From positions 1-64,000 of the forward strand of contig JAADJD010000024.1 in the NCBI GenBank assembly GCA_013150955.1: a DNA stretch of 64,000 bases, given 5' to 3'. The notes below the pieces were generated by a model. It did no database searches, was not told the origin of the DNA, and saw nothing but the letters and a program-made list of their open reading frames with translations. The stretch comes from Calditrichota bacterium (GTDB lineage Bacteria; Calditrichota; Calditrichia; RBG-13-44-9; J042). This document shows, in pieces, positions 5,145-36,879 of the stretch. Within the stretch, counting starts at the first letter, position 1, and every line of letters starts with the position of its first letter. The translations under genes were made by a program, and so were the position numbers.

Positions 5145-6500
5145 ATGCGTTTAACCCATACATTCTTAGCCGTTCTTTTCACCTGGGTGGGATTCGTTTC
5201 GGCAATTGTCGCCTCGGATCAGATTCCCGCACCGCCACAAACCCGGCCCATTGCGCTGATCGGGGGAACCATTCACACGTTAAGTGGTGCCACCATTGAA
5301 GATGGTATCCTGTTGTTTGAAAACGGAAAAATCACCGCCATTGGCCAGAACGTGACCCTGCCCGATAACACCCGCAAAATCGATATTCGCGGAAAACACG
5401 TCTACCCCGCGCTGATTTCAGCCAATACGGTCATCGGACTCACGGAGATTAATGCGGTGCGTGCGACCCGGGATTTTGCTGAGGTGGGACAGATTAATCC
5501 CAACGTCCGCGCAGAGGTGGCCATTAATCCGGATAGTGAAATTATCCCTGTCACCCGGGCCAATGGCATTGCGCTGGCACTATCGGTACCCATTGGAGGA
5601 TTAATTGCGGGGACCTCGGCGCTTATCATGCTGGACGGCTGGACCTGGGAGGAAATGACCCTGAAAGCGCCGGTGGGATTGCACATTCGCTGGCCGCGCA
5701 TGCAAATTGTGGAAAGCCGCTATTACATCCGCCGGCGCTCTCCCGAAGAACAAAAGAAAGAAATCGAAAAGAGCCTGAAGCGGATTCGACAGGCCTTTGC
5801 TGATGCCCGGGCATACTGGAAAGCCAAACAGGCGGAAGCCCGGAAAGGCATTCCCTATCACGCCACTGACGCTCGCTGGGAAGCGATGATCCCGGTTTTA
5901 AAAGGGGACGTACCGGTGTTTGTTCATGCAGATGACATTCTACAGATTCAATCCGCCATCGAATGGGCAACCATGGAAAAGGTCCGCCTGGTGATTGTGG
6001 GCGGATACGATAGCTGGCGGGTTGCGGATGTTTTGCGGGAGAAGGATATTCCGGTTATCATTGGTGGGGTTCATCGCCTGCCCTTTCGCCGCTGGGAACC
6101 CTACGACACCCCGTTTACCCTGGCCAAAAAGCTTTACGATGCGGGTGTGAAGTTTTGCATTGCGACCGGTGGAGGGCCTTTTGGTGCCGCCCACGAACGC
6201 AATTTGCCCTACCACGCCGCAACGGCCGCCGCTTACGGTTTACCCCGGGAAGAAGCCCTGAAAGCGGTAACGCTTTATCCGGCGGAAATTCTGGGTGTGG
6301 CTGATCGCGTGGGTAGCCTGGAAGTGGGAAAAGACGCCACATTGATTGTGACCAACGGCGATCCCCTGGAAATCACCACCCGGATCGAAATGGAATTCAT
6401 CCAGGGACGGGAAATCGATTTGAGCAGCCGGCACACTCAACTGTATACCAAATATAAGCAGAAGTATATCCAGAAAGGCCTTTTGCCGGCAGAGGAATAA
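5145..6500 (+). CDS. Exported amidohydrolase-like protein, metal site missing
   Basis: 451 residues from the ATG 6 bases after AAGGAG (5133-5138). An ATG at 5130 is in frame but has no ribosome site and would lengthen the signal peptide (MRLTHTFLAVLFTWVGFVSA). The fold is amidohydrolase: an amino-terminal beta sandwich (IALIGGTIHTLSGATIEDG), and the terminal LGVADRVGSLEVGKDATLIV. However, where family members have HxH the sequence is YPALISANTVIG, and the later metal His positions are not obvious. It therefore resembles the degenerate first half of the preceding protein. The 42-base gap after that gene suggests co-transcription and perhaps a complex. It could be a pseudoenzyme partner or use an atypical site. 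Confidence 0.8.
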   Translation: MRLTHTFLAVLFTWVGFVSAIVASDQIPAPPQTRPIALIGGTIHTLSGATIEDGILLFENGKITAIGQNVTLPDNTRKIDIRGKHVYPALISANTVIGLTEINAVRATRDFAEVGQINPNVRAEVAINPDSEIIPVTRANGIALALSVPIGGLIAGTSALIMLDGWTWEEMTLKAPVGLHIRWPRMQIVESRYYIRRRSPEEQKKEIEKSLKRIRQAFADARAYWKAKQAEARKGIPYHATDARWEAMIPVLKGDVPVFVHADDILQIQSAIEWATMEKVRLVIVGGYDSWRVADVLREKDIPVIIGGVHRLPFRRWEPYDTPFTLAKKLYDAGVKFCIATGGGPFGAAHERNLPYHAATAAAYGLPREEALKAVTLYPAEILGVADRVGSLEVGKDATLIVTNGDPLEITTRIEMEFIQGREIDLSSRHTQLYTKYKQKYIQKGLLPAEE

Positions 6501-6563
6501 GGAGGGCCTATGGGTTCAGGCAAAACCCGCACCACTTCAGGTGAAAATCGGTGAAGAGGAAGG

Positions 6564-6590
6564 TTCAGGGGGAATCACATTCCCTCTGAA
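6564..6590 (+). other. Hairpin downstream of the amidohydrolase operon
   Basis: A 12-base stem TTCAGGGGGAAT/ATTCCCTCTGAA with loop CAC and one wobble pair. It lies 63 bases after the stop codon at 6500. No T run follows, so it is not a classic terminator, though it could stabilise the 3' end of the message. The rest of 6501-6731 shows nothing I recognise. Confidence 0.45.
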
Positions 6591-6731
6591 AAACCAGGGA
6601 ACCCAGGAGCACCGTGTCCTTCTCCATTCAGTCAGAAGTTCCAACAACTGCGGTTAACGATGGACATGCCCGGTACCATGGGACATCGCCAGGGGCCGGG
6701 CATGGATCGGATTGCTACCCGGATGTTGCCT

Positions 6732-6928
6732 CATACCGCGAATTAACACCAATAAAAATAATAGAACACACTTGCTTCTATCCGGATGAAAATGTTTTTT
6801 CCTGGATATATTCGCTATTTTGCTGATTTTATTCGAATTCATTCGCGTGATTCGTGGTTTAACGCATTATCTGGGATTGTTTTTGTTCGTGTTCATCCGG
6901 GTCATTCGTGGCTCATGCATCATCTGGG
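6732..6928 (+). repeat. Family B element, with an extra right arm
   Basis: Left arm at 6732 (GCGAATTAACACCAATAAAA), core CCGGATGAAAATG, and right arm TTCATTCGCGTGATTCGTGG ending at CTGGG (6875). A second diverged right arm then runs to 6928. The arms are imperfect inverted repeats of one another. It sits in the gap between two same-strand operons; 6929-7150 shows nothing else. Confidence 0.75.
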
Positions 6929-7181
6929 TGACCCATCAGCGGTGGCAATTTATCTACCCGTTGATTTTCCCGACAGATTGCTGAGAATCCCATCACCTGA
7001 AAATTTTACGAAAACAACGGGGATTTCCGTAATCCCTGATTTTTCAATGAGATAAGTGGAAAGTCATTTGAAAATATCCACCGGCACTGTTTTTGCACCA
7101 TTTCTGTCCGACAATTAAAAAATCAGGGATGATTCATCATCCCCTGTGACGATAAGGAAGTCGGTAAAAAAGGGGAACAGG

Positions 7182-7400
7182 ATGATTGATAGTGCTCTAA
7201 ACGTTTCCAGCTCGGTATCCGAAGATCCGCAAGAAAAGCTCACGCAACTCCTCACATTCCTGCGCAGTCGATTAAACGTTATTTCCACTTCCCTCTACCT
7301 GTTAGAAACGTCGCTCGATCCGGCCGACAATGCGGCCAAAAAATACCTGATAAAAATTAATCAGGAAATTGATAGTATCCGAAAATACATTAATGAATAA
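7182..7400 (+). CDS. Small protein resembling a histidine-kinase dimerisation hairpin without the histidine
   Basis: 72 residues. I chose the ATG at 7182 because AGGGG lies 6 bases upstream; a GTG at 7146 would add 12 residues without a ribosome site. Residues about 20-70 look like the two-helix DHp hairpin of a sensor kinase. RSRLNVISTSLYLLE lines up with the RTPLTIIKGYIEILD of the kinase encoded next door, followed by a second helix (KYLIKINQEIDSIRKYI). At the phospho-acceptor position the residue is Thr25 instead of His, and the conserved Pro is Arg30. It is 11 bases ahead of the REC-kinase gene, so it is probably co-expressed. I infer an inhibitor or dimerisation partner of that kinase; a decayed kinase fragment is the alternative. 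Confidence 0.6.
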   Translation: MIDSALNVSSSVSEDPQEKLTQLLTFLRSRLNVISTSLYLLETSLDPADNAAKKYLIKINQEIDSIRKYINE

Positions 7401-7411
7401 AGGTGACCATC

Positions 7412-8608
7412 ATGGATAAATTCAAACCCCAAATACTGATCGTTGAAGATGACGAACTGATTCGCAACATCTTTCAACAATCGCTGGAGAACTGGGGTTA
7501 TCCCGTGGACACGGCAGAGAATGGACAGGATGCGCTGGACAAGATTCGCCGAAAAAATTACCACATCGTGATTACCGATTTGAATATGCCAATCATGGAC
7601 GGCATGACCCTGCTCAATCGCATCAAATCCGAATGGCCTTATATCGAAACGATCGTGGTCACCGGGTTCGCCACCATCGAGTCGGCCATCGATGCCCTGA
7701 AAATGGGCGCATTCGACTTCATCCTCAAGCCGGTTAATTTCGATCAGGTTAAAATCACCGTTAAAAAATGCCATCACAAGATCCAGGCCGAAGCCGAGAA
7801 CACCCACCTGAAGAAGATCAACGCCCGCTTAAAAGAATTGAACGAGATGAAGGACAAGTTCCTCTCCATTACCAATCACGAAATCCGCACCCCGCTAACC
7901 ATCATAAAAGGATATATTGAGATTCTGGACGGTCTGATCAATTCGTCGGAGCCGGAAATCCGGGAAATCTTCCAGATCCTCAAAAGCACCATCCAGGAAC
8001 TGACCCAGACGGTGGAACGCATGCACACCCTGACCCGCGCCAATCGGGGTGACTGGATTGCAGAGCCCCATAATGTGGATGTGGTGCAGGTGGCTCAAAA
8101 AGTGTATGACGAAATGCACCGTCTTTTTGAACATCGGAGCATACAGCTGGAGATCAGCCTGCCCCATCATCCGCTGTACATACTGGGATCATTTCATGCC
8201 CTGCAAATCATTTTGCGAGAACTGCTTCAAAATGCACTCAAATTCACTCAGGACGGCGGCAAGGTCAATCTGAAAATTTACGAAACGCATAAGCAGGTGG
8301 CCATTTGTGTGCAGGACAACGGCATTGGCATTCCGTACGAAAAACAGGACGCCATTTTCTCCCTTTTCTACGAAGTGCAGGACGTGGTTTACCACAAGAG
8401 TTCCAAGAACGAATTCATGGGCGGCGGCATGGGTATTGGACTTTCCCTGGTTAAAGAATTCGTCACCAATATGAAAGGTAAAATTGTGGTCGATAGCGAT
8501 CCGGGCATCGGATCGACCTTCGTTGTGTATCTCCCCAAAGTACGGCAGGAAACATCCCACAAGGAGGTGAAACCGGATGAGCCATCCCAGGTCACCTTCT
8601 CCAGCTAA
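7412..8608 (+). CDS. Response regulator-histidine kinase fusion
   Basis: 398 residues; the ATG has AAGGTG 6 bases upstream. An amino-terminal receiver domain (1-120) has acidic pocket VEDDE, phospho-acceptor Asp56 (ITDLNMP) and Lys106 (LKPVN). A DHp domain follows with His156 in ITNHEIRTPL, then an HATPase domain with N box LLQNALKF, G1 box DNGIGIP and G2 box GMGIGL. There is no membrane segment, so it is a cytoplasmic kinase whose output is likely set by phosphorylation of its own receiver. The gene follows the small DHp-like gene by 11 bases and overlaps the zinc-ribbon gene by 32 bases, which points to one translationally coupled unit. Confidence 0.93.
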   Translation: MDKFKPQILIVEDDELIRNIFQQSLENWGYPVDTAENGQDALDKIRRKNYHIVITDLNMPIMDGMTLLNRIKSEWPYIETIVVTGFATIESAIDALKMGAFDFILKPVNFDQVKITVKKCHHKIQAEAENTHLKKINARLKELNEMKDKFLSITNHEIRTPLTIIKGYIEILDGLINSSEPEIREIFQILKSTIQELTQTVERMHTLTRANRGDWIAEPHNVDVVQVAQKVYDEMHRLFEHRSIQLEISLPHHPLYILGSFHALQIILRELLQNALKFTQDGGKVNLKIYETHKQVAICVQDNGIGIPYEKQDAIFSLFYEVQDVVYHKSSKNEFMGGGMGIGLSLVKEFVTNMKGKIVVDSDPGIGSTFVVYLPKVRQETSHKEVKPDEPSQVTFSS

Positions 8609-8870
8609 CACGCGCCAATCCTTTCTGGGAAAATATGCCTGTCCCCTGTGCAACCACCACCTGACCGTTCCCATGAAAGGCAACAAGCAGCAGCTATTGC
8701 TGGCCATTCGTCTTCCTGAAAATCAGTACATCAGTCCTCCCAGTCCCCGTTGCCCTCACTGCCATCGCAAGATGATGCTCCAGTCCATTGTGGATCAAAA
8801 CGGGCAGGTGCTGATCGATGTGTACCAGTGGATGGGACGCGAAATTTCCCGCATGAAGCGCTTCATCTAA
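8577..8870 (+). CDS. Small zinc-ribbon protein of unknown function
   Basis: 97 residues with two CxxC knuckles, Cys22/Cys25 (ACPLCNHH) and Cys59/Cys62 (RCPHCHRK), which should bind one zinc. The spacing of about 33 residues suits a zinc ribbon. The start lies inside the end of the kinase gene but has a strong AAGGAGGTG site about 7 bases upstream, so the overlap is real. I do not recognise the family. Its position suggests it serves the same signalling pathway, perhaps as an adaptor; this is inference from order only. No terminator is visible after it, and 8871-9078 shows nothing else. Confidence 0.75.
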   Translation: MSHPRSPSPANTRQSFLGKYACPLCNHHLTVPMKGNKQQLLLAIRLPENQYISPPSPRCPHCHRKMMLQSIVDQNGQVLIDVYQWMGREISRMKRFI

Positions 8871-9090
8871 AACCTACCTGCAGTAGACGTCTCCCAATCC
8901 CATTCAAAAACGTTCATCATTCCGAAAGCAAGAGCGTTCGTTTTTCGGCTAACCATTGGCCAAACAAAATACCCTGCCCTTCATCCGTTCTGCTCCCTCA
9001 GCAAAACGAGTCCGCGAAATCCGGTCGTGCTTTTATTTGATTTTCCCGTGCATTAATTTAGAGACAGATGACGAACAACAGGAGGCCATC

Positions 9091-10518
9091 ATGAAGAAGA
9101 AAACATTCAAGCCATTTATTCATAACGAATTTGTGGAGACATCCAAAACATTCACCGTCACCAATCCATACGATGGATCAGAGGTTGGGACGGTTTATCG
9201 TGCAGAAGAGCCCCACCTGGAACGCGCCGTACGCAGTGCTCAGGCCGGATTTCAGGAAATGCGCAAGCTTTCCAGTTACGATCGCTACCATGCGCTGCTA
9301 AAGATTCGGGATGGGATACAAAAGCGGGAAAAGGAGCTGGTGGAAACGATCGTCCGGGAGGGTGGCAAACCCATCCGATTTGCCCGCAATGAGGTATCCC
9401 GCGCACAGTTAACCTTTACCTGGGCTGCCGAAGAGGCCCGACGGTTAACCGGGGAGTTCCTTCCACTGGATGTTGCTCCCCAAACACGCGGTTACATGGG
9501 AATTGCCCGGCGGGTGCCCCTCGGCGTCATTCTGGGAATTTCTCCGTTTAACTTTCCCCTGAATCTGGTGGCGCACAAAATTGCCCCTTCCATCGCCTCC
9601 GGGAACGCAATCATTCTAAAACCCGCCTCCCCCACGCCGATTACCGCACTTTTGCTGGCGGAAATCATCCAGGAAGCCGATCTTCCTCCCGGTGCCGTCA
9701 ACGTCATTCCCTGCTCCGGCAAAGATGCGGAAACACTGGTGACCGATGGGCGCATCCAGAAGCTCACCTTTACCGGAAGTGCCGAGGTGGGCTGGTACCT
9801 GAAAAGCAAAGCCGGTAAAAAGCACGTCACCCTGGAGCTGGGCGGTAATGCGGGGGTGATCGTAGAGCCCGACGCCGATCTGGAATTTGCCGTTCCGCGA
9901 CTGGCCCTGGGCGCCTTTGCCCATGCGGGTCAGGTGTGCATCTCCGTGCAGCGGATTTACGTTCAGGAACATATCTTCGAGCCTTTCGTCTCCGCCTTTC
10001 TGGAAACCGTCCAGCGCTCCATGAAAATGGGCGATCCGTTCGATGAGGAAACGGTCGTCGGCCCTATGATTGATCAGGAAGCGGCACAACGGGCAGAACG
10101 CTGGATCCAGGAAGCCTGTGAACAGGGTGCACAAATTTTGACCGGCGGAAAACGAAACGGCTCCCTGCTGGAACCCACGGTCATCACCCACACCAAACCG
10201 GACATGAAGGTGGTCTACGAGGAAGTGTTTGCTCCCATCGTGGTCATCGAACCGTACCGGGAATTTCCGGAAGCAATTAAATGGGTGAACCATTCCCATT
10301 ACGGCCTTCAGGCGGGCGTGTTCACGCGGGATATCCACAAAATTAAATATGCCTTTGATGAGCTACAGGTGGGCGGGGTGATCATTAACGATTATCCCAC
10401 GTTTCGGATTGATCCCATGCCCTACGGTGGCAGCAAGGATTCTGGCTTTGGACGCGAAGGCATCCGTTACGCCATTGAGGAAATGACCGAAATTCGATTG
10501 TTGGCCATGAAATTTTAA
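9091..10518 (+). CDS. NAD(P)-dependent aldehyde dehydrogenase
   Basis: 475 residues, starting at the ATG 5 bases after AGGAGG; the open frame extends upstream but without a ribosome site. It oxidises an aldehyde to an acid or acyl product. Family residues are all present: Asn154 (SPFNFP), Lys177 (LKPAS), Glu249 in the LELGGN motif, and catalytic Cys283 (AGQVCISVQR). The nucleotide-binding FTGSAEVG loop is intact. Length is normal. The overall pattern is closest, by memory, to lactaldehyde, phosphonoacetaldehyde or succinate-semialdehyde type enzymes; the substrate cannot be fixed from this window. A family B repeat begins on the base after its stop codon. Confidence 0.92.
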   Translation: MKKKTFKPFIHNEFVETSKTFTVTNPYDGSEVGTVYRAEEPHLERAVRSAQAGFQEMRKLSSYDRYHALLKIRDGIQKREKELVETIVREGGKPIRFARNEVSRAQLTFTWAAEEARRLTGEFLPLDVAPQTRGYMGIARRVPLGVILGISPFNFPLNLVAHKIAPSIASGNAIILKPASPTPITALLLAEIIQEADLPPGAVNVIPCSGKDAETLVTDGRIQKLTFTGSAEVGWYLKSKAGKKHVTLELGGNAGVIVEPDADLEFAVPRLALGAFAHAGQVCISVQRIYVQEHIFEPFVSAFLETVQRSMKMGDPFDEETVVGPMIDQEAAQRAERWIQEACEQGAQILTGGKRNGSLLEPTVITHTKPDMKVVYEEVFAPIVVIEPYREFPEAIKWVNHSHYGLQAGVFTRDIHKIKYAFDELQVGGVIINDYPTFRIDPMPYGGSKDSGFGREGIRYAIEEMTEIRLLAMKF

Positions 10519-10692
10519 CCCAGATGATGCAATAGCCTACGAATTACACGAATTAACACAAATAAAGCCAATAAATTACATTGGATTGTGTCTGTATGAA
10601 AATGTGTTCCAGGGTTTAAAAATGTGTTCCAGGGTTTATTCGCGATTTTGTAGAGATTTTTTGGTTTCATTCGCGTGATTGACGGTTTAATG
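10519..10692 (+). repeat. Family B element directly abutting a stop codon, with internal 20-bp duplication
   Basis: Starts CCCAGATGATGC at 10519, the base after the aldehyde dehydrogenase TAA, and ends TGCATTATTTGG at 10692. The core contains AAAATGTGTTCCAGGGTTTA twice in tandem (10599-10618 and 10619-10638). Flanks TTTAA and ATTAA differ at one base and may be a decayed target duplication. It fills the gap between two convergent genes. Confidence 0.85.
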
Positions 10693-10714
10693 CATTATTT
10701 GGATTAAAAACAGA

Positions 10715-13099
10715 TTACTTTTTCAATTTCACGATGGTGACGCCGGTATCCCCCTCTCCCCATCTCCCCAGGCGCTTTTCCAGCACCCGCCGATCCCTGG
10801 CCAGAAATTCATTGATTCGCTGGCGTAACACCCCGGTTCCCTTTCCGTGAATAATGCGCACCTCATCCCACCCCGCATTGATGGCCTGGGTCAAATAATG
10901 ATCGGTGGCTTCCACTGCCTCGATGGCATCCATCCCGCGCACATCCAGTTCGGGTTTCACCGCCGGTTGGGACATTCCAGCTTTCAGGGTTGCCGCTCGC
11001 TGGAAAGTCCTGGGCGCCTCAGCAGGGCGTTCCAGCCGACGCAACTGGTGAACCTCGATGTTCAATTTTACATGGCCCACCTGCACCCGCACCTTCCCTT
11101 TATCATCGACCGGCGTTAATACCTCGCCCTCCTCGCGCAACGATTCAATCCACACCCGGTCTCCCGGCCGGAGATCCATCGGTGGACTCTCCCCGGTTTC
11201 CGGTTCGCCGGTAGCGATGGTTTCCATTTCTGCCTGTAACTGTTCCAGGGTCTGCCGGGCCATTTTAATTCGGCTTTTTTCGGCCTGGGTCTGCCGAATC
11301 TCCTGCACCAGCTTCTCGATGGTCGCCCGTGCCTGCTGAACCAGTTCCGCCGCTTCGCGAGCCGCTTTTTGCCGCAACGCCGCCTTCTCCCGTTTCAAGG
11401 TCTCCACCTGATTCTGATACAGCTGCCGTAATCCCTCCGCCTCGGTCAATCGAATGCTCAATTCCAGTTGCTGCTTCTCCAGCTGCTGAATCCGCTTTTC
11501 CAGTTCCAGCACCAGCTTTTCCAGCTGATCCTTCTCCTGACCCACCACTTCACGAGCCCGCTGAATGATCCAATCCGGCAAACCATAACGACGCGCAATT
11601 TCGAACGCATAACTGCTTCCCGGCACGCCCACCCGAAGGCGATACGTGGGTTGCAGGGTTTCCAGATCAAATTCCATGGAAGCATTTTCCACCCCCGCTT
11701 CCTGATGGGCAAAGGCTTTCAACTCGCCATGATGAGTGGTGGCAATGGTGAACACCTTCCGGCGGGTTAGATACTGCAGGATGGAAATAGCCAGTGCCGC
11801 ACCCTCTCGCGGATCAGTTCCGGTACCAATTTCATCGATCAGAACCAGTGTGCGGGCATCGGCGCGTTCCAGGATTTCCCGCATGCGCACCACATGTGCT
11901 GAAAACGTGCTTAAATCCTGCTCAATGGACTGGCGATCACCAATATCCACCAGGATTTGCGGCAATAGGGGGATTTCGGAATCGGCTTCCGCTGGAATGG
12001 GCATGCCGTATTGCACCATTAGCATCAGCAAACCAATGGTTTTGATGCTGACGGTCTTCCCTCCGGCATTGGGGCCGGTAATGACCAGGGTAACAAAATC
12101 CTCCCCCAGGGTCACCGAAAGGGGCACCACGTGCTGATGCCCCATCTTGAGAATTAACAACGGATGACGGGCGTTTTTTAAGCGAATGGGGCCATCTTCC
12201 CGAACACGGGGAATTTCGGCTTTCAGTTCCAGCGCAAGTCGGGCTTTTGCCAGCAAAACATCCAGATAACCGATATTTTCAATGCCGTAATAAATATCGT
12301 CTCGCACCTGGCGGATCAGATCGGTTAGAAATCGAAGAATTTTGATGACCTCCTTGCGCTCCTCAATTCGCAGGCTTTGAATGCGATTACTGATTTGCAG
12401 GGTTTCCATGGGCTCGATAAACACCGTGGCACCCGAAGCAGACGTGCCGTGCACAATACCATTTACCCGGCTAACCCACTGCTGCTGGATACCCAGCACC
12501 ATGCGTCCGTCCCGAAGCGTTACAATCTCGTCCTGGGAATATTCAGCATATTTCTTTAACATTTGCTGGAGCACCCGTTTCTGTTCGCTCTCCAGGTGGC
12601 GAATCTGCCGCCGAATATCGCGCAATTCCGGGCTGGCATGATCCACCACCTCGCCGCTCGAATCGACGGTACGCTGAATTTCGCTGACAATATTTTTGTG
12701 GCCATGGATACCACGGGCATAAAAATACAGTCCCGGCGCCGCTTCCTGATGCTTGCGGAAAAAGAGGTGAATTTCTCCCATCATTTGCAGGTGATGCTGG
12801 ATTTCCAGCAATTCCTCGCCTTCCAGGTAGGCCTCAGCGGGACGGGTTTTTTGCAGCAACGGCCGGATGTCGCTCAATCCACCCAGCGGTATAACTTCGC
12901 CTGATTGAAGCAAGGCCATCATCTCCCGCACCTCTTCCAGCCGACGCCGAACCGTCTCTACCTGGACGTCGGGTTCCAGTTGTTTCAGTTGATCCGATCC
13001 GTAAGAAGTGGATAAATGGGAGGCCAATTTCTCCAGTATGCGGGGAAATTCCAGCTGCTCAAGCGTCGTCTTATCGTGCCTGGGTTGAATCGCTTCCAC
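10715..13099 (-). CDS. mutS2: MutS2 family ATPase with Smr domain
   Basis: 794 residues, normal for MutS2. The middle carries the ABC-type ATPase: Walker A TGPNAGGKT (341-349), Walker B LVLIDEIGTGTDP (from about 418) and the ST(F)SAHV region. A long coiled coil follows (about 515-620), and the carboxyl-terminal Smr nuclease domain has LDVRGMDA and HGKGTGVLR. The Smr position that is often LDLR is LDVR here. In other bacteria MutS2 suppresses recombination and rescues collided ribosomes. The start is GTG and overlaps the end of cvpA by 29 bases; no ATG is available nearby. It is the last gene of rpsU-yqeY-cvpA-mutS2. Confidence 0.95.
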   Translation of the reverse strand: MEAIQPRHDKTTLEQLEFPRILEKLASHLSTSYGSDQLKQLEPDVQVETVRRRLEEVREMMALLQSGEVIPLGGLSDIRPLLQKTRPAEAYLEGEELLEIQHHLQMMGEIHLFFRKHQEAAPGLYFYARGIHGHKNIVSEIQRTVDSSGEVVDHASPELRDIRRQIRHLESEQKRVLQQMLKKYAEYSQDEIVTLRDGRMVLGIQQQWVSRVNGIVHGTSASGATVFIEPMETLQISNRIQSLRIEERKEVIKILRFLTDLIRQVRDDIYYGIENIGYLDVLLAKARLALELKAEIPRVREDGPIRLKNARHPLLILKMGHQHVVPLSVTLGEDFVTLVITGPNAGGKTVSIKTIGLLMLMVQYGMPIPAEADSEIPLLPQILVDIGDRQSIEQDLSTFSAHVVRMREILERADARTLVLIDEIGTGTDPREGAALAISILQYLTRRKVFTIATTHHGELKAFAHQEAGVENASMEFDLETLQPTYRLRVGVPGSSYAFEIARRYGLPDWIIQRAREVVGQEKDQLEKLVLELEKRIQQLEKQQLELSIRLTEAEGLRQLYQNQVETLKREKAALRQKAAREAAELVQQARATIEKLVQEIRQTQAEKSRIKMARQTLEQLQAEMETIATGEPETGESPPMDLRPGDRVWIESLREEGEVLTPVDDKGKVRVQVGHVKLNIEVHQLRRLERPAEAPRTFQRAATLKAGMSQPAVKPELDVRGMDAIEAVEATDHYLTQAINAGWDEVRIIHGKGTGVLRQRINEFLARDRRVLEKRLGRWGEGDTGVTIVKLKK

Positions 13100-13673
13100 T
13101 GTTCAGAAATCGTTTTATCGCTTCTTCTTTTAGCTTCTTCTCGCCCTGTTGATACACGCGAAAAAGCCGTTCCTGTAATTTATGGGTATCGATGGAAAAT
13201 TCGGTAGACATGCTGTATAATGCTGGCACCATATTTTCAATGGGCCGGTACAACACACTCTGCTCTTTAATGGCCTCCAGTTGTCCCTTTAATGGTAAAA
13301 TCGACAAAAACAGAAACAACAGACTGAGGATCAACGCCCCTTTTAAGCCGCTGGCTGCTGCCCCCAGCAGGCGGTTTAACCAGCCAAGGTGCAGGGTACG
13401 GCTCAACTCACTTAAACCGCTGGCCACCAAACGACTGATGAGATAAATGATCAGAAACAAGGACACAAAGCTGATGATGGGAATTAAAAATCGGGGAAGA
13501 TTGGGAAGAAAATGTTCCACAACGCGGGAAAATGGGGTAAATCCCTGAATGGCGATGATGATACCTCCCACCCATCCCAGCAGTCCCAGCACCTCCCGAA
13601 AAAAACCTTTTCGCAGACCCTTGGTAACAAAAAAGGCCAGGACGGCCAGAATAATCAGGTCGATAGAACCCAT
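13071..13673 (-). CDS. cvpA: CvpA family membrane protein
   Basis: 200 residues. Four hydrophobic helices fill the first 130 or so residues (LIILAVLAFFVTKGLRKGFF, VLGLLGWVGGIIIAI, and two more), followed by a charged tail. The opening pattern with GxxKGxxxGF, here VTKGLRKGFF, is typical of CvpA, an inner-membrane family linked to colicin V production and envelope homeostasis. It is commonly found immediately before mutS2, as here, where the two overlap by 29 bases. A 4-base gap separates it from yqeY. Confidence 0.9.
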   Translation of the reverse strand: MGSIDLIILAVLAFFVTKGLRKGFFREVLGLLGWVGGIIIAIQGFTPFSRVVEHFLPNLPRFLIPIISFVSLFLIIYLISRLVASGLSELSRTLHLGWLNRLLGAAASGLKGALILSLLFLFLSILPLKGQLEAIKEQSVLYRPIENMVPALYSMSTEFSIDTHKLQERLFRVYQQGEKKLKEEAIKRFLNSGSDSTQAR

Positions 13674-13677
13674 GAGA

Positions 13678-14127
13678 TTAAAGTCTGGAAAGTTTATCTT
13701 TCACGATCTGTTGCACCAGCTTTCCATCGGCGCGACCTTTTACCTTTGGCATGATCGTCCCCATGACGCGTCCCATATCCCTGGGACTGGTCGCACCCAC
13801 TTCCTGAATGATTTGATCCACCAGGCGGGAAATTTCGTCTTCACTCATCTGCTGGGGTAAATACGCCTCGATAATGGCCAGCTCCTGAGCCTCGATCTGG
13901 GCCCGATCCTCGCGACCCACCGCCCGAAACTGCTCGATGGATTCTTTCCGCTTTTTGGCGGCCTTCATCAACACCTGGATCTGTTCTTCCTCACTCAACT
14001 CCCCTCCCTTCTCAATCTGGGCATTCTTCAATTGCGCCCGCAGGCTGCGGATCGTTTCCAGCCGCAACTTATCGCCAGACTTCATCGCCGCCTTCATGTC
14101 TTCCAATAGCTGCTTCTCCAGGCTCAC
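13678..14127 (-). CDS. yqeY: YqeY/GatB-domain protein
   Basis: 149 residues from a GTG at 14127, which has a GAAGGGG site about 7 bases upstream; the open frame runs further but without support. The opening SLEKQLLEDMKAAMKSGD, the central AIIEAYLPQQMSEDEI and the end GRADGKLVQQIVKD match the YqeY family. This family resembles the tRNA-binding tail of the GatB amidotransferase subunit; its precise role is unclear. It follows rpsU after a terminator-like hairpin and precedes cvpA by 4 bases, an order common in many bacteria. Confidence 0.92.
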   Translation of the reverse strand: MSLEKQLLEDMKAAMKSGDKLRLETIRSLRAQLKNAQIEKGGELSEEEQIQVLMKAAKKRKESIEQFRAVGREDRAQIEAQELAIIEAYLPQQMSEDEISRLVDQIIQEVGATSPRDMGRVMGTIMPKVKGRADGKLVQQIVKDKLSRL

Positions 14128-14148
14128 GCTGGCACCCCTTCCTGAGTT

Positions 14149-14181
14149 AAAAAAATAATTCGGGTGTTTCAACACCCGAAT
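14149..14181 (-). terminator. Intrinsic terminator between rpsU and yqeY
   Basis: On the minus strand an 11-base perfect stem ATTCGGGTGTT/AACACCCGAAT (14158-14168 with 14171-14181) is followed by TTATTTTTTT. It lies 22 bases after the rpsU stop and 22 bases before the yqeY start, so it probably lets rpsU be made in excess over the genes behind it. Confidence 0.8.
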
Positions 14182-14202
14182 CCATTCCGAAAAAACAATT
14201 GA

Positions 14203-14400
14203 TTAAAACTGATTTTGCTCCATCATCTTGCGGATCTTCCGACGTGCCGCATTTTCCTTCCGCTTCCGCCGTTCGCTGGGCTTTTCAAAATGCTGATGCT
14301 TCTTAATCTCCGCCATCAAACCCGACTTCTCACATGCCTTGGTAAACCGTTTCAATGCCTTCTCGAATGTTTCGTTTTCCCGCACTTTAATATGTATCAT
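14203..14400 (-). CDS. rpsU: 30S ribosomal protein S21
   Basis: 65 residues. It matches S21 throughout: VRENETFEKALKRFTKACEK near the start, the EIKKHQHFEKPSERRKRK basic centre and a lysine/arginine-rich tail. S21 joins the small subunit near the mRNA exit and helps initiation. I chose the ATG at 14400 because the GGAGG at 14413-14417 would touch the alternative GTG at 14412. The spacing is then 12 bases, which is long. First gene of a four-gene operon. Confidence 0.95.
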   Translation of the reverse strand: MIHIKVRENETFEKALKRFTKACEKSGLMAEIKKHQHFEKPSERRKRKENAARRKIRKMMEQNQF

Positions 14401-14466
14401 ACCGGAACACACCCTCCTTTCTGTTTTTGGGTTCCTTCACCGGTTAACAGTTCCGACCACGTCCAC

Positions 14467-14495
14467 TATATACCCTTATTCGACAATTTTGTTCA
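14467..14495 (-). promoter_or_regulatory. Candidate rpsU promoter
   Basis: On the minus strand TGAACA (14495-14490) is followed after 17 bases by TATATA (14472-14467), about 67 bases ahead of the rpsU start. Four of six bases match the -35 consensus, and the -10 is A/T-only. This is a sequence-pattern call only. Confidence 0.35.
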
Positions 14496-14532
14496 GTTAT
14501 TTGCGAATTTCTCCTCGGTTAACGCAAACAAT

Positions 14533-15402
14533 TTATTGATATCGACTTTCGTTTTTGATCATGTCGATTTCATACAATGCTGCCTGTTTCCAGTTGCGAT
14601 CGCGACTGGCCTTTTCGTAGTACTGAATGGCCAGCTGTTTCTGGCCCCGCATCTTGTACACTTCACCCAAACCAAAATTGGCCGCCGCACGAATTGCACT
14701 GGATCGGGCCAGCTTGACCGCCTGCTTATAGGCATTCTCCGCATCCGATAACTTCTTCAGGTTCAAATAGGCATCGCCCAAACGCAAATAGGTATCGGCC
14801 TTGCTGGAAGCCTTCTTTTCATATTGCAGGGCTTTCTGCAATGCGGCAATAGCCTGGGTGTATTGCTTAGTTTGCAGGTAAACAATTCCCAGATTTTCCC
14901 AGGCCCGGCCATAAGTGGTGTCGATTTCCACCGCTTTCTGGAAATAATCGCGGGCTTTCAGGTATTTTTTCTGTTTCAGGTAGACATACCCGATGCCCCA
15001 CAGAGCCTTCACTTCCTTTGGATTGACCTGCAGAGCCGCGTTGTACGTGTTCAATGCCGCATCATATTTTTGCATCTGGGTCTGCAAAAGCCCCAGAGCC
15101 GTGTACGCTTTGGAATAATTCTGATCTTTTTCAATGGCCATCTGGTACGCCTTCTCGGCGTTTACATAATCTCGCATGCGTTTATATGTAAGACCCATGG
15201 CGTAATAGGCAACGGCCAGATTGGGATCTTTCTCAATGGCTTCTTTAAATTTGGCCAGGGCCTCTTCGTATTTCCCCTTTAACATTAACGACTTGCCCTC
15301 ATTGTAGGCCATTTTTGCCTCGTTTGCGGCATCCTGCGCAATGGCCGAGACAAAGAATACAACGATTAACCCCACAATTGCCAGGAAACGAAACCCTTTC
15401 AT
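14533..15402 (-). CDS. Exported TPR-repeat protein
   Basis: 289 residues. The signal peptide (LAIVGLIVVFFVSAIAQ) is followed by at least six tetratricopeptide repeats covering the rest, with the usual 34-residue rhythm (AKFKEAIEKDPNLAVAYYAM, YVNAEKAYQMAIEKDQNYSK, and so on). Such proteins are periplasmic or membrane-tethered scaffolds; the partner is unknown. A strong AAGGAGGTG ribosome site lies 5 bases upstream of the ATG. It sits between efp and rpsU on the same strand with a gap of about 107 bases after efp, so the two may be co-transcribed. Confidence 0.88.
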   Translation of the reverse strand: MKGFRFLAIVGLIVVFFVSAIAQDAANEAKMAYNEGKSLMLKGKYEEALAKFKEAIEKDPNLAVAYYAMGLTYKRMRDYVNAEKAYQMAIEKDQNYSKAYTALGLLQTQMQKYDAALNTYNAALQVNPKEVKALWGIGYVYLKQKKYLKARDYFQKAVEIDTTYGRAWENLGIVYLQTKQYTQAIAALQKALQYEKKASSKADTYLRLGDAYLNLKKLSDAENAYKQAVKLARSSAIRAAANFGLGEVYKMRGQKQLAIQYYEKASRDRNWKQAALYEIDMIKNESRYQ

Positions 15403-15509
15403 TCAATCACCTCCTTTTATTGAAATGCGAATTTAATTTTATTCTCAATTTTTGTCAATGGGTTCAACGTTTTTTATTTACGATTCCTTTCTTCAGTTCC
15501 CGGATCAAA

Positions 15510-16073
15510 TCACTTTGCCCGATCCAGATACTTTCCATCCCGGGTATCCACCCGTATCACATCGCCCACTTCGATGAAGGGGGGTACCTGGGTTTGCAAG
15601 CCGGTTTCCAGCGTTGCAGGTTTATAGGAGCTGGACACCGTCGCCCCTTTCAAATTGGGTTCCGTTTCCACAACCTTTAATTCCACTGCGGCAGGCAGCT
15701 CCACCCCGACCGGCTTGTTTTCATGAAATTGAATCTGCACCACCGTTTCCGGCATCAAAAAATAAACGGCGTCGCCCAGCATCTCCTTATTCAGATGAAT
15801 CTGTTCGTAGGTTTCCATATCCATAAAATAGTAATCATCCCCATCCTGGTACAGGTATTGAAATTCCCGGCTAATGAGGGTCGCTTTTTCAACAGGTTCA
15901 TCGGGACGAAAGCGATGTTCGGCATTGGTGCCATCGGATAACCGTTTCATTTTTACCTGCATCAAGGCCTGTCCTTTACCCGGGGTAACATGAACCGCTT
16001 CGGTGACCCGATACAGGTCTCCCCGATATTCAATGACCATTCCCTTACGCACTTGAATCGCCTTAATCTTCAT
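15510..16073 (-). CDS. efp: Translation elongation factor P
   Basis: 187 residues, standard length. The first KOW-like domain carries the loop HVTPGKGQA with Lys33 at the tip, the residue that in other bacteria is lysylated, hydroxylated or otherwise modified. The two OB domains follow, ending in DVIRVDTRDGKYLDR. EF-P relieves ribosome stalling at polyproline. A Lys rather than Arg tip argues against the EarP rhamnosylation route. No modification enzyme gene is in the window. Confidence 0.97.
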   Translation of the reverse strand: MKIKAIQVRKGMVIEYRGDLYRVTEAVHVTPGKGQALMQVKMKRLSDGTNAEHRFRPDEPVEKATLISREFQYLYQDGDDYYFMDMETYEQIHLNKEMLGDAVYFLMPETVVQIQFHENKPVGVELPAAVELKVVETEPNLKGATVSSSYKPATLETGLQTQVPPFIEVGDVIRVDTRDGKYLDRAK

Positions 16074-16216
16074 GATCGTGTCATCCTCACCATAATTTTT
16101 CGCAAGTTAAAATTTAATTTTCCATCCCAAAAAATGCAAAATGTTTGTCAAAATATTAACCCAACTTTCATATGAATTCGTAATGTTCCTCAAGAATTTC
16201 CCGGAATAAACTTAAA

Positions 16217-16550
16217 CCCAGATTAAGCAATAGCCTACGAATGACACGAATGAACACCAATAAAACAAATAAACCCAAATAATGCGTTAAACCACGAATC
16301 ACGCGAATGAATTCGAATAATATCAAAAAAAGAGCGAATATATCCGGGAAAACATTTTATCCTGATAGAATCAAGTGTATTCTATTATTTTTATTGGTGT
16401 TTATTCGTGTAATTCGTGGTTTTAATGCATAATCTGGGATAAAATACATTGGATTGTGTCTGGATGAAAATGTGTTCCAGGGTTTATTAGCGATTTTGTA
16501 GATATTTTTGGGTTTCATTCGCGTGATTCGTGTTTATTGCATAATTTGGG
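16217..16550. mobile_element. Family B element interrupted by a second family B element
   Basis: The outer copy runs 16217-16273 and resumes at 16439-16550 (left arm CCCAGATTAAGC, right end TTGCATAATTTGGG). The inner copy is 16274-16438, 165 bp, in the opposite orientation, starting CCCAAATAATGCGTTA and ending TAATGCATAATCTGGG. ATAAA stands directly on both sides of it (16269-16273 and 16439-16443). Uninterrupted copies elsewhere (for example near 36,710) read AATAAAATACATTGG across the site, so the duplication is accounted for. Confidence 0.85.
16274..16438 (-). mobile_element. Nested family B element with 5-bp target duplication
   Basis: The inner copy described in the preceding entry. Its arms are imperfect inverted repeats of about 46 bases, its ends are CCC and GGG, and it has no coding capacity. 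This is the clearest evidence that the family moves. Confidence 0.85.
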
Positions 16551-21291: not shown

Positions 21292-21684
21292 CCAGATTAT
21301 TCATTTGCTTACGAATTACACGAATGAACACCAATAAAAACAATAAACCTGTTGTGCTATTTTGGGATGAAGCAAGCATTTAGAAAAACCGTTGAAACGG
21401 TTAATCATCAATCCATTACGTTTTCCATTCTCCTGGCTGAAGCCAGGAGTTAATGTAAATTCTTATTCACTAACACCAAGATTTGTCTGATTGGACAACT
21501 CCTATAGTAACAATAATTTATAGAACCATTTCAACAGTTTGGGTTGTTTCATTAGCACATCGGGTAAATAATAAAATTCGTTTGATTATATCCGGACAAA
21601 AATATGTGTACCCGGATTTATTCGCTTTTTTGTTGATATTTTTGGTTTCATTCGCGTGATTCGAGGTTTAATGCATTATTTGGG
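21292..21684 (+). mobile_element. Family B element split by a family C element
   Basis: Left part 21292-21347 (CCAGATTATTCATTTGC to CAATAAA) and right part 21565-21684 (TAAATAATAAAATTCG to TTATTTGGG) together make one ordinary family B copy. An additional family B right arm continues at 21685-21732. Confidence 0.75.
21348..21564. mobile_element. Family C element, 217 bp, inserted in family B
   Basis: Ends CCTGTTGTGCTA and TAGCACATCGGG form a 12-base terminal inverted repeat with two mismatches. TAAA is repeated on both sides (21344-21347 and 21565-21568). Inside are two hairpins, AACCGTTGAAACGGTT and CTCCTGGCTGAAGCCAGGAG. There is no open frame of note. It looks like a small non-autonomous transposable element. 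Confidence 0.65.
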
Positions 21685-21802: not shown

Positions 21803-24800
21803 CTACTGATAACGTTTCCCATACTCCGAAGGGGACACACCAAACTCCTTCCGAAAACAGCTGGCAAAATATGATAAATTGTTAAACCCAACCTCATACG
21901 CCACTTCGGAGACCGTGCCCCATCCTTTTTTCAGTAAATCGGCTGCTTTATGGATTCGCAAGCGCCGAATAAATTCTGATGGCGACAGGTTTGTTAACGC
22001 CTTGAGTTTTCGGTGCAATTGAACCCGACTTAATCCCATTTCCCGGGCAAATTCCGTTACCCCAAAATGGGCGTCTCCCAGATGCTGTTCAACCATCTGA
22101 CATGCCCGCCGTAAAAATCGTTCGTCCAGAGAACTGACGGCGGCTTCACTCAATGCCAGAGGAGACATTTTTTGAAATTTCTCCCGAAGACGCTGGCGTT
22201 GTTCAATCAGGTTGCGAACCCGCGCGCGCAACACTCGGGTGCTGAATGGTTTCACCACATAATCGTCCGCCCCAATATCCAATCCCCGAATTTTACTTTC
22301 GTCCGATCCCCGCGCCGTTAGCAATATCACCGGGATATGACTGGTTCGCTCATCCTCTTTTATGTGTTGACAAAATTCGAATCCGTCCATCTGGGGCATC
22401 ATCACATCGGAAATGATCAAATCTGGAATTTTTTCCTGAGCAATGCTCAGGCCCTCTTTTCCATTTTCGGCTTCCAGCACCCGGTATTGGTCGACCAACA
22501 TGTCGCGAATATACTCGCGCATCTCTTCATTATCTTCTACAATTAAAATGATTGGCCTGTCCACCCGGGTGGTAAATTGGGCCTTTGGCCCCTCTTTTTC
22601 GGTAGTTTCCACCAGGTCAGGCTTTCCATTTCCATACGATTGCTCCTCGGGAATTGCAGGCGGTTCGGGTTCCTCTACAATCTCTTCTGGTTTAAAATGA
22701 TCGCAACCCAGCGGGATCAGAACGGTGAATCGACTTCCCTGCCCAACCTCACTCTGCACCCGAATCTGTCCACCATGCCGTTCAATCAATTCTTTACTTA
22801 ACGCCAACCCGATGCCCGTCCCCGTGCTGGTAAAATATTTATTGGATTCTACCTGATAAAACCGTTCAAAAATACGTTCCAGCTGATCCTGCGGGATCCC
22901 GATGCCGGTATCCTGAACTTCTACAAAGGCATATGCGTGCCCATTTTCCTGGATTTGACCCACCCGCACCCAAACCTGTCCGCCATCTTTGGTAAATTTA
23001 AAGGCATTGGACAGCAGATTATTGATGATTTTTTCGAACTGCTCCCTGTCCACATACACTTCGATGGGTTCGTTCCACAACTGCACGTCCAGCTGGATGT
23101 TGCGTTGCATGGCCAGGCTTTCGAACGCGTTAGCCAGCCCCTTGACCATGCGATTTAATTCGGTCTTTCGCACACGCAATTGCAATTGCCCCGCTTCCAG
23201 CTTCGACAAATCCAGCAGCTGATTGATCAACGAAAGCAGCTGGAGCGCATTTTGTTTCATTTTTTGATACAGCGGGCGGGGATCGCCACGAAATTCCCCG
23301 GAAATCAATTGATCCAATGGTCCCAGGATAAGGGTCAGTGGGGTTCGGAAATCGTGGGAAATATTGGCAAAGAAACGCGACTTGGCCTGATCGATTTCCA
23401 GCAATTTTTGTTTTTCAATCCGCTGAATTTTCAGGTCATTTTCCAGGCGCACTTTATTGACCTCAAAGCGCACAATACCGTAAATGGCCAGCAGGACACC
23501 AATCACATAAGCCAGATATGCCCACCAGGTCTTCCAGGGCGGGGGATCCACCCGGATGCGAATTGCCACCCCCTCTTCATTCCAGATGCCATCGTTGTTG
23601 GACCCCTTCACCCGAAAGACATAGGTTCCCGCTGCCAGATTGGTGTAGGTGGCAAAGCGTCGATGCCCGGCATATACCCAGTCTTCGTCAAACCCCTCCA
23701 TTTTGTAGGCGTATAAATTTTTTTCCGGAAAAGTGAAGTTCAGGGCAGCAAATTCAAAGGAAAAAACATTGTGTTTATAAGAAAGATGAATTTCATCCAG
23801 AAATGGAAGTGCGCGAGGAAGAATGGAATTTACCCCAACCTGCTGGGGCTGGTTGAAAATGAGAAATTTGGTGAAAACAACCGGTGGAATGTATTGATTA
23901 TCTCGAATGGCTTCTGGAAAGAAAAGATTCAGTCCCTGTGCTCCCCCAAAATACATGCGACCACTTTGACCTCGATGGTAGGCCGCCTGATTAAATTCAT
24001 TGCTTTGTAATCCATCGCGAACGTCGTAATTGCGAAAAGTACGGGTGTCGGGATCGAAACGAGACAGGCCATTGTTGGTGCTCATCCATAAAAACCCCTG
24101 ATCATCTTCCAGGATACCATAGATCACCTCATTGGGGAGCCCATCCTTTTCCCGGAAATGAATGAATCTTCCAGTGCGCCGATCCATTAAATTCAGTCCT
24201 CCCGTGGTACCAATCCAGAAGCGCCCGCGGCTATCTTCGTAAATAGACAGTACGATATCCGAACTCAATGTGGTCACGTCATCAGGCCGGTGACGATATC
24301 GAATGAATTGGTTATTTTCGGGATCATATCGATTCAGTCCTCGAATCGTTCCTACCCAGAGGGTTCCCTGGCGATCGATATACAGTGCCCTGACGATGTT
24401 GTGGCTTAAGCTTAAAGAATCATCCGGATCGTGATACCACACGGTAAACGATTCCGTTGCCGGATCGAATCGATTTAAACCGTGGGCCGTTCCCAACCAG
24501 AGGTAACCGGCAGAATCCGGACAGATGGCCTGTACCCGATCATCACTCAAGGAATGAGGATTTTGCGGATTATGCCGCCAGTGGCGCACGGTCCCGGTAC
24601 GCGGGTCCAGCCGATTTAGCCCCCGGGAAGTTCCCAGCCATATGTACCCGTCCGCTGTTTCCGATATCGCCCAGATGCGATTATTGCTCAAGCTGTTGGG
24701 ATTAGAAGGATCGTGTTTCCAGACCCGAAAGCGCCGGGATTCGGGATCGAAATAATTCAATCCTCCGCCATTGGTTCCAATCCACACGCCGCCACGGGAA

Positions 24801-25972
24801 TCTTCGTAAATGGCCCAGACATCATCATGACTCAGCGTGTTTTCCGCATGGGGATCTCGATACCAGTGTTCAAATTTCCGGGCATAGGGGCTGTAGTAAT
24901 TCAATCCCCCACCCCGGGTACCAATCCAGATACCGCCCGCACGGTCTTCAAAAATGGACCAGATGTAATCATGACTAATGCTTTTGGGATTTTCTTTGTC
25001 CCGCAGAAACCGCTGAAACATTCCCGTGCGGGGATCAAAAATGTTTACTCCGCCACCGTACGTGCCAATCCACAACTTGCCCTGTCGATCTTTATGGATT
25101 GCAGGAATGGTTCGGTAACTTAAAGCGTTGGGATCTGCGGGATTACTCTTCCAGTGCTGGAATTCTCCGGTCCGGGGATCAAAACAATCCAGTCCGCCGG
25201 TCGTTCCCAGCCAGAGCTTTCCGGATTCGTCTCGAAAAATTGCGATCACACGATTGCTACTTGGGGAATTGGGATTCTGAGGATCGTGCTGCCACTGGGT
25301 AAACTTTCCGGTGGAGGGATCGAAACGAATCAGGCCCCCGCCGCGGGTGCCGATCCACAACACCCCTGAGGGATCCCACGCCAGTGCCCAGATGCGGTTA
25401 TGGGGAAGACTGGCAGGATCCGAGGGATCATGTTGCCAGACGGTAAATTTCTGGCTGTCGGGATCAAAACAATTTAACCCCCCGCCGTCGGTACCAATCC
25501 AGATTTTCCCATCAATATCCAGCGCCAGGGCTCGAATGGTGTTGTAGCTCAGGGTATTTTCCACCCCAATGCGTGACACCCAGTGATCGAACCGATCCCG
25601 TTCGGGATCGTAGCGATTCAATCCCCCATTGCGGGTGCCAATCCAGATGAATCCCTGGTGATCCTGTATGAGGGCATAAACGTAATTGTCCGACAGGGAA
25701 TTGGTATCGCCCGGAATGTGTTTAAATACACGAAATTCATAACCGTCAAAGCGATTCAACCCATCCTCGGTACCAATCCAGATAAATCCCTGACGATCCT
25801 GCAAAATATCCAGCACAGAGCTCTGAGACAGTCCCTGTTCCTGAGTAAAATGAAAAAATTCGTATGACTGGGAAAATCCATTAAGAGGCAAGAAGATAAG
25901 GCAGCAAACAAAAATGAAAGAAATATATTTTGCCACGTGAAGAATGCTTACCCCAAAGCTTCTTCCTATCAT
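21803..25972 (-). CDS. One-protein hybrid two-component system (propeller, Y_Y_Y, kinase, receiver, AraC)
   Basis: 1389 residues. Signal peptide (1-35); about 14 Reg_prop blades with repeated IWIGTxGGGLNxFDP motifs (40-690), which should form two propellers in the periplasm; Y_Y_Y domain (about 730-808); one membrane helix (about 816-835); DHp with His873 (ISHDFRTPL); HATPase with DTGIGIP and GTGIGL (975-1090); receiver with Asp1189 (IISDVMMP) and Lys1241; AraC helix-turn-helix (1290-1389). This is the layout of Bacteroides-type hybrid regulators, which sense a ligand, often an oligosaccharide, and switch nearby genes. No carbohydrate-use locus is adjacent, so the target is unknown. The ribosome site is weak (AGGGG, 11 bases away). 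Confidence 0.95.
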   Translation of the reverse strand: MIGRSFGVSILHVAKYISFIFVCCLIFLPLNGFSQSYEFFHFTQEQGLSQSSVLDILQDRQGFIWIGTEDGLNRFDGYEFRVFKHIPGDTNSLSDNYVYALIQDHQGFIWIGTRNGGLNRYDPERDRFDHWVSRIGVENTLSYNTIRALALDIDGKIWIGTDGGGLNCFDPDSQKFTVWQHDPSDPASLPHNRIWALAWDPSGVLWIGTRGGGLIRFDPSTGKFTQWQHDPQNPNSPSSNRVIAIFRDESGKLWLGTTGGLDCFDPRTGEFQHWKSNPADPNALSYRTIPAIHKDRQGKLWIGTYGGGVNIFDPRTGMFQRFLRDKENPKSISHDYIWSIFEDRAGGIWIGTRGGGLNYYSPYARKFEHWYRDPHAENTLSHDDVWAIYEDSRGGVWIGTNGGGLNYFDPESRRFRVWKHDPSNPNSLSNNRIWAISETADGYIWLGTSRGLNRLDPRTGTVRHWRHNPQNPHSLSDDRVQAICPDSAGYLWLGTAHGLNRFDPATESFTVWYHDPDDSLSLSHNIVRALYIDRQGTLWVGTIRGLNRYDPENNQFIRYRHRPDDVTTLSSDIVLSIYEDSRGRFWIGTTGGLNLMDRRTGRFIHFREKDGLPNEVIYGILEDDQGFLWMSTNNGLSRFDPDTRTFRNYDVRDGLQSNEFNQAAYHRGQSGRMYFGGAQGLNLFFPEAIRDNQYIPPVVFTKFLIFNQPQQVGVNSILPRALPFLDEIHLSYKHNVFSFEFAALNFTFPEKNLYAYKMEGFDEDWVYAGHRRFATYTNLAAGTYVFRVKGSNNDGIWNEEGVAIRIRVDPPPWKTWWAYLAYVIGVLLAIYGIVRFEVNKVRLENDLKIQRIEKQKLLEIDQAKSRFFANISHDFRTPLTLILGPLDQLISGEFRGDPRPLYQKMKQNALQLLSLINQLLDLSKLEAGQLQLRVRKTELNRMVKGLANAFESLAMQRNIQLDVQLWNEPIEVYVDREQFEKIINNLLSNAFKFTKDGGQVWVRVGQIQENGHAYAFVEVQDTGIGIPQDQLERIFERFYQVESNKYFTSTGTGIGLALSKELIERHGGQIRVQSEVGQGSRFTVLIPLGCDHFKPEEIVEEPEPPAIPEEQSYGNGKPDLVETTEKEGPKAQFTTRVDRPIILIVEDNEEMREYIRDMLVDQYRVLEAENGKEGLSIAQEKIPDLIISDVMMPQMDGFEFCQHIKEDERTSHIPVILLTARGSDESKIRGLDIGADDYVVKPFSTRVLRARVRNLIEQRQRLREKFQKMSPLALSEAAVSSLDERFLRRACQMVEQHLGDAHFGVTEFAREMGLSRVQLHRKLKALTNLSPSEFIRRLRIHKAADLLKKGWGTVSEVAYEVGFNNLSYFASCFRKEFGVSPSEYGKRYQ

Positions 25973-26108: not shown

Positions 26109-26327
26109 CCCAAATAATGCGTTAAACCACGAATCACGCGAATGAAGCCAAAAAATATCTGCAAAATCGCGAAAAAACCTGGAACATATTTTCATCCAGA
26201 TATCATCAAATGGATTTTATTATTTTTATTTGTGTTAATTCGTGTAATTCGTAGGCTATTGCATAATCTGGGATTATTTTTATTTGTGTTCATTCGTGTA
26301 ATTCGTGGTTTATCAAAAATCATCCAG
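26109..26327. repeat. Family B element plus extra arm
   Basis: A complete 164-bp copy (26109-26272, CCCAAATAATGCGTTA to GCATAATCTGGG) and a second right arm to about 26327. The open frames in this gap (for example the one spanning 26142-26399) are translations of the repeat. The rest of 25973-26108 shows nothing. Confidence 0.8.
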
Positions 26328-29940: not shown

Positions 29941-30204
29941 GGATATGCATTAGCCTACGAATGACACGAATTCACCCAAATAATAAACCCAAATTATGCT
30001 TTAGACCACGAATTGCACGAATTAACACAAATAAAAATAATAAAATCCATTTGATGATATTTGGATGAAAATGTGTTCCAGGTTTTTCGCGATTTTGCAG
30101 ATATTTTTTAGCTTCATTCGCGTGATTCGTGGTTTAACGCTTTATTTGAGGTTAATATTTTTCGGATGAATTCGGGTAATTCGCGGTTTCATGTATAATC
30201 CGGG
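29941..30204. repeat. Family B composite locus
   Basis: A near-complete copy (29988-about 30151, CCCAAATTATGC to TTTATTTGAGG) lies between a diverged left arm (29941-29987) and a diverged right arm ending CCGGG at 30204. This suggests another insertion within an older copy. Nothing else is seen in 29862-30310. Confidence 0.75.
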
Positions 30205-36659: not shown

Positions 36660-36823
36660 CCAGATTATGCATTCGACCACGAATTACACGAATTAACACC
36701 AATAAAACCAATAAAATACATTGGATTGTGTCGGGATGAAAATGTGTTCCCGGGTTTATTCACGATTTTGTTGATATTTTTTAGATTTATTCGCGTAATT
36801 CGCGGTTTCATGTATTATTTGGG
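36660..36823 (+). repeat. Family B element adjoining family A
   Basis: CCAGATTATGC to TGTATTATTTGGG, a complete copy. Its left edge cuts a family A hairpin, which reads GCAGGCATAAAGC (from about 36,649) and then switches into the element instead of closing the stem. Confidence 0.8.
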
Positions 36824-36879
36824 TTGAAGAGGAAAACAGAAAAAAGCGTGCTGCAGTATCCCACCTGTTTTTTGTAAAA

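Follow-up and report, generated by a model that had tools for sequence, protein, structure and literature searches.

Results

A repeat interrupted by an inverted copy of its own family

The window, by which we mean the whole 64,000-nt stretch of DNA analysed here, carries at positions 16217-16550 one copy of an intergenic repeat inserted into another. BLAST comparison within the window showed that a 165-bp inner copy (16274-16438) splits a copy of the same family lying on the opposite strand, whose two halves (16217-16273 and 16439-16550), when joined, align end to end with other copies. The bases read directly across both junctions, which are marked here by slashes, are AACACCAATAAAACAAATAAA / CCCAAATAATGCG...GCATAATCTGGG / ATAAAATACATTGGATTG, and the pentamer ATAAA stands on either side of the inner copy. 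The locus is composed as follows.

16217-16273, minus strand (relative to the inner copy): outer MITE copy, first half; begins CCCAGATTAAGCAATAG and closes with the first ATAAA as its final 5 bases
16269-16273, no strand: left target-site duplication ATAAA; bases read, fits the WTNAW target motif (see below)
16274-16438, plus strand: inner full-length MITE, 165 bp, CCC...GGG, without an ORF; one long imperfect hairpin (z -4.8)
16439-16443, no strand: right target-site duplication ATAAA; bases read
16444-16550, minus strand (relative to the inner copy): outer MITE copy, second half; ends ATAATTTGGG

Removal of the inner copy together with one ATAAA leaves an unbroken repeat. Across the insertion point the sequence of the intact copy at 36660-36823 is ACCAATAAAATACATTGG, which accounts for exactly one ATAAA. 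At the level of single bases and of BLAST alignments, the coordinates, the orientation and the ATAAA duplication given by an earlier, sequence-only reading of this DNA were all correct, and its claim that uninterrupted copies account for one ATAAA is borne out by the copy at 36660-36823. A lone nested copy with an AATAAA-rich flank is nevertheless weak evidence, and it is the genome-wide statistics given below that carry the case. The other copies in the window are listed here.

6733-6875, minus strand: shortened MITE copy, intergenic; a further fragment adjoins at 6877-6928; absent at this place in L032
10519-10702, minus strand: MITE copy flanked by the ALDH and mutS2-like genes; absent at the syntenic place in L032
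20721-20884, minus strand: full-length uninterrupted MITE, comparison copy
21292-21684, minus strand: MITE in two arms, 21292-21348 and 21566-21684, with ~220 bp of other sequence between them
26109-26272, plus strand: full-length MITE; a partial copy adjoins on one side only (26274-26314)
29988-30148, minus strand: full-length MITE adjoined at either end by partial copies
31252-31408, minus strand: MITE copy, with the next copy directly after it at 31406-31563
31406-31563, minus strand: MITE copy
36660-36823, minus strand: full-length MITE; AATAAAATACATTGG unbroken across the point where 16274-16438 sits
47823-47981, plus strand: MITE copy
57143-57279, plus strand: MITE copy with an internal deletion
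62289-62427, plus strand: diverged MITE copy
63736-63887, minus strand: MITE copy

An Rfam search of the window returned one tRNA only, and no known RNA family for the repeat. Another family of intergenic hairpin repeats, richer in G+C and in part tandemly arranged (ACCGACTCTGGAGAGTCGGGCTACATTT..GCGCAGGC..GCCTGCGCC), is also present in the window, at 35656-36609, 238-574, 57492-57744 and 36878-36938. Two large genes, at 24068-25810 and 44660-46258, contain internal repeats of ~50 nt (CCAATCCAGAT...) that probably encode repeated protein domains.

Structure, abundance and genomic position of the element

The element is 165 bp long and non-coding; its inverted ends are CCCAGATTATGCATTAG / CCCAAATAATGCATTAA, its arms are similar over ~40 bp, and it folds as a hairpin (z -4.8). 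With a profile made from 30-odd copies, we searched 861 kb of the same genome (the window and L128-L167) and obtained 220 copies amounting to 28.7 kb, 112 of which had both ends recognisable. A second sample, a separate 400 kb, yielded 113 copies, 64 of them with both ends. Together the two samples cover 1.261 Mb of the 4.07-Mb genome and hold 333 copies, and the genome-wide number is estimated at ~1,070 by scaling and at 973 by calibration on a whole-genome motif count, both figures taking in fragments, as both ends are present in about half of the copies. The element makes up ~3.5% of the DNA, and the mean pairwise identity among copies is 76%.

According to gene calls that were crude (longest open frames), 208 of the 220 copies lie outside called genes in a sample of which 88% was called coding. 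Gaps between convergent genes are over-represented, with 61 of 205 copies against 18% of intergenic bases, whereas gaps between divergent genes are under-represented (19 of 205, again against 18%). Selection against insertions into promoters would be expected to give such a distribution. The element is short, non-coding and multicopy, with terminal inverted repeats and a target-site duplication of fixed length, as is characteristic of a MITE.

Insertion at WTNAW with a 5-bp duplication

The sequence-only reading had claimed transposition of a non-coding element, as opposed to simple duplication, and had proposed deriving a family consensus and tabulating the flanks of all copies. We compared these flanks with a null in which right flanks were shuffled among copies (500 shuffles for the first set and 1,000 for the second). 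An exact 5-bp repeat flush with CCC and GGG was found in 39 of 112 copies of the first set (shuffled mean 10.2, maximum 18) and in 25 of 64 copies of the second (mean 5.4, maximum 13). The 5-bp duplication is well above chance and was replicated in the second set, and the claim of transposition is upheld by the flank statistics of both. Flank matches of 6, 7 or 8 bp did not occur in either set, nor did matches of 9 bp in the first.

The target motif is WTNAW (A/T-T-N-A-A/T): its second base is T in 92-95% of flanks and its fourth base A in 94-96%. It occupies both flanks of 79 of the 112 copies, against a background of 2.5-3.5% per site. Among the 39 first-set sites with a duplication, at least 12, or 16 if weaker matches are counted and the case in the window is included, lie within another copy, and at these nested sites a repeat is restored across the junction once the flanks are joined minus 5 bp. 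The locus at 16217-16550 is one of many nested insertions. Twenty-four duplicated copies sit in non-repeat DNA.

Loss of the duplication with divergence

When both sets were pooled, 64 of 176 intact copies carried the duplication and 112 (64%) did not, which is more than a purely recent expansion would show and counts against our best explanation. The duplication survives in 57% of copies in the least diverged quarter versus 14% in the most diverged, and divergence differed between copies with and without it (Mann-Whitney p = 3.5e-5). Copies with two WTNAW flanks showed differences between the flanks at no position in 38 cases, at one in 17, at two in 17 and at three in 7. That unmatched flanks often still fit WTNAW points to later recombination or decay.

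We rejected the idea that mismatched flanks are mere point mutations, since 24 of the 41 non-identical WTNAW pairs differ at two or three positions; point mutation alone covers at most the 17 single differences. Because of these multi-position differences, and because 32 of the intact copies that lack a duplication are adjoined by a partial MITE on just one side, recombination fits better than point mutation, and we infer that flanks have been exchanged by recombination between copies.

An IS1380-family element with matching tips

The sequence-only reading had suggested a search for transposases with ends beginning CCCAGAT, and such an element, of the IS1380 family, lies outside the window. 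In this genome PF13701 is matched once, at the extreme end of contig C18 (138 bits, cut-off 34.7), and the IS protein matches NF033539, the NCBIfam IS1380 equivalog, at 219 bits (cut-off 180). The IS is 1,459 bp long, as determined from the overlap of end pieces, and its start in C18, reading upstream, is CCCAGATTACGCAATAG. In a genome search, further copies of the left end lay at the ends of C27, C13 and C21, with a diverged one in C8; matches to the far edge lay at the ends of C14, C12, C19, C44 and C35, and these contigs run on into CTAATGCGTAATCTGGG, the right tip. The left tip thus stands on five contigs and the right tip on five different ones, so that the IS must have several copies, which the draft assembly has collapsed. 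In the best IS fragment the reading frame of the transposase gene is broken near the N terminus, which weighs against our explanation but may be an effect of the collapsed assembly.

The 17-bp IS tips CCCAGATTACGCATTAG / CCCAGATTACGCAATAG match the MITE ends CCCAGATTATGCATTAG / CCCAAATAATGCATTAA at 16 of 17 positions, and with at most one mismatch the IS tip occurs 242 times genome-wide, versus 4 times for a reversed control. Long inverted ends had been ascribed to the repeat, and rightly so, yet only the outer ~17 bp of them is common to the IS. Because nothing beyond these ~17 bp is common, an origin of the MITE by internal deletion of the IS is not obvious. The flanks at ten IS tips are TTTAA (seven tips), TTAAA, ATAAT and TTTAT, the last if C18, with its doubled CCCAGATT, is read from the first of the two. 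All ten of these flanks fit WTNAW; in the draft assembly the left and right ends of any one IS copy cannot be paired. Duplications of 4-5 bp have been reported for IS1380 members (PMC12116815), and ISEcp1 makes a 5-bp duplication at an AT-rich target (PMC2887853).

Two further observations were made on C18. The first eight bases of its IS copy are doubled (CCCAGATTCCCAGATTACG, L031:1401-1409), perhaps by an end slip or by insertion beside a MITE tip. Upstream of the IS1380 element, a short tandem-like array of TATGTTTTGAATAAAACAA units occupies L031 ~1960-2230.

Expansion in a single lineage

Among 60 genomes, relatives of the IS1380 transposase were found in this genome, G017 and G016 only, the latter two being distant. 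The IS1380 element of G017 shows 31% protein identity to the partner IS, and one copy of it has TTTAA on both sides. In the same-genus sister genome G001, three short matches all belong to a single non-coding relative of ~310 bp, which has the same tips and its own ATAAT duplication.

Empty sites in related strains, another comparison that had been proposed, were looked for in syntenic DNA. L032 (WFTQ01000091.1) is colinear with window positions 5783-13610 and is MITE-free at the places of 6733-6928 and 10519-10702, and G001 is colinear with 13072-16157 and has no MITE in the 1.5 kb beyond. The comparable places are MITE-free in both, in intergenic DNA that is too diverged for empty sites to be read base by base. 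Since these places are MITE-free in relatives and G001 has one relative of the element, the expansion is specific to this lineage; the spread is recent relative to a sister species.

A dispersed motif in the arms

The MITE arms contain an ATTCGTG motif (CCACGAATTACACGAATTAACACGAAT). A 17-mer from it, ATTCGTGTNATTCGTGG (for example at window positions 16403-16419), is present 225 times here; 10 other genomes of the class (L195-L224) have 1-42 occurrences each, and of 152 more distantly related genomes two have a single one, versus 0-1 per genome for its reversed control. In the other genomes of the class the motif is mostly solitary and without CCC/GGG tips. The possibility that it always forms an inverted pair there, and so marks a MITE of its own, was rejected, as an upstream inverted partner was present in only 8 of 36 cases. 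The same motif also lies inside sequences with quite different inverted ends, namely CGATCCCGGCTATGAG.. in G008 (L204/L172) and AATGAGTCCAGTCT.. in G027 (L180/L188; 10 matches). It could be an independent dispersed intergenic element, perhaps a binding site for a widespread protein, that was captured by the MITE and aided its rise to ~1,000 copies, an idea that we put forward as speculative and rather improbable. No published description of the repeat or of the ATTCGTG motif was found in the literature searched. In passing, we noted a Moco (molybdenum/tungsten) riboswitch at L237:18548-18672 (Rfam RF01055, 86 bits).

Discussion

We are confident that the repeat is a non-autonomous MITE that inserts into WTNAW targets with a 5-bp duplication, almost certainly moved by the IS1380-family transposase of the same genome. 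The transposase from the 1,459-bp IS would recognise the ~17-bp tip common to IS and MITE, cut the MITE and insert it at a 5-bp WTNAW target, and repair of the staggered cut would duplicate the target. New copies would settle between genes and often within older copies, because WTNAW sites occur in the MITE sequence as well; later recombination between copies, together with decay, would then remove or scramble the duplications. To judge from the sequences, this transposase is the probable mover, and movement would follow a cut-and-paste or a copy mode.

Could a different transposase have moved the MITE, either another DDE element present here or one since lost? The genome encodes several further PF01609-type transposases, MITE and IS are alike in their tips only, and the MITE far outnumbers the IS, with copies so diverged (76% identity) that much of the spread may predate the present IS copies. 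We nevertheless consider this unlikely, since no other transposase locus has the tip pair around its gene, nearby tip matches being mostly MITE copies, and since the IS1380 element has a matching tip and WTNAW flanks and belongs to a family reported to make duplications of a compatible length (4-5 bp). It is very improbable that the copies spread by recombination or simple duplication and that the flanking ATAAA arose by chance in an AATAAA-rich repeat. Many copies do abut others, and WTNAW flanks alone give ~9% chance 5-bp matches (10.2 of 112 when shuffled), but the observed matches are ~4 times the shuffled expectation in two samples, with 4-bp and 6-bp matches not raised, and duplicated copies in non-repeat DNA as well as the exact restoration of nested sites also stand against chance. 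A REP/REPIN-type palindrome, mobilised by a RAYT (Y1 tyrosine) transposase, would likewise be short, palindromic, intergenic and numerous, but this reading is scarcely credible: the present element has CCC/GGG tips that match a DDE element and an exact 5-bp duplication, whereas Y1/HUH transposases, to our knowledge, do not duplicate their target.

The MITE resembles several known systems. The piggyBac elements of eukaryotes have CCC..GGG tips and TTAA-containing targets, but their fixed 4-bp TTAA differs from the 5-bp WTNAW duplication seen here. REP, REPIN and ERIC sequences are also abundant intergenic palindromic repeats, whereas the 5-bp duplication and the IS-like tips belong to this MITE; REPs, as far as we know, leave no duplication. 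IS1380 serves as the outgroup in piggyBac trees (PMC10813416). With IS1380-family members such as ISEcp1/ISEc9, our element has in common the family of its partner transposase, CC-type tips and a 5-bp AT-rich target duplication (PMC2887853, PMC12116815), but it is 165 bp long and without a transposase gene. It is closest in kind to the type I bacterial MITEs, whose tips are common with a resident IS (MITEAba12, Chunjie) and which are likewise short, non-coding and intergenic, with inverted arms and a target duplication. Those have lower copy numbers (1-22 for MITEAba12; 38 plus 57 partial for Chunjie; PMC10969869) than the ~1,000 copies, or ~3.5% of the genome, found here. The highest figure in that review of prokaryotic MITEs is 711, for ERIC in Photorhabdus luminescens (PMC10969869), and is exceeded by our estimate.

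Our literature searches, whose coverage was incomplete, found no published description of a MITE of the IS1380 family. The kind of element is known and the member is new, and it stands out by an unusually high copy number. These results account for the principal intergenic repeat of this uncultured bacterium and add to the IS1380 family a MITE, whose ~1,000 insertions form a natural record of target choice (WTNAW), of the loss of duplications with age and of reshuffling between copies.
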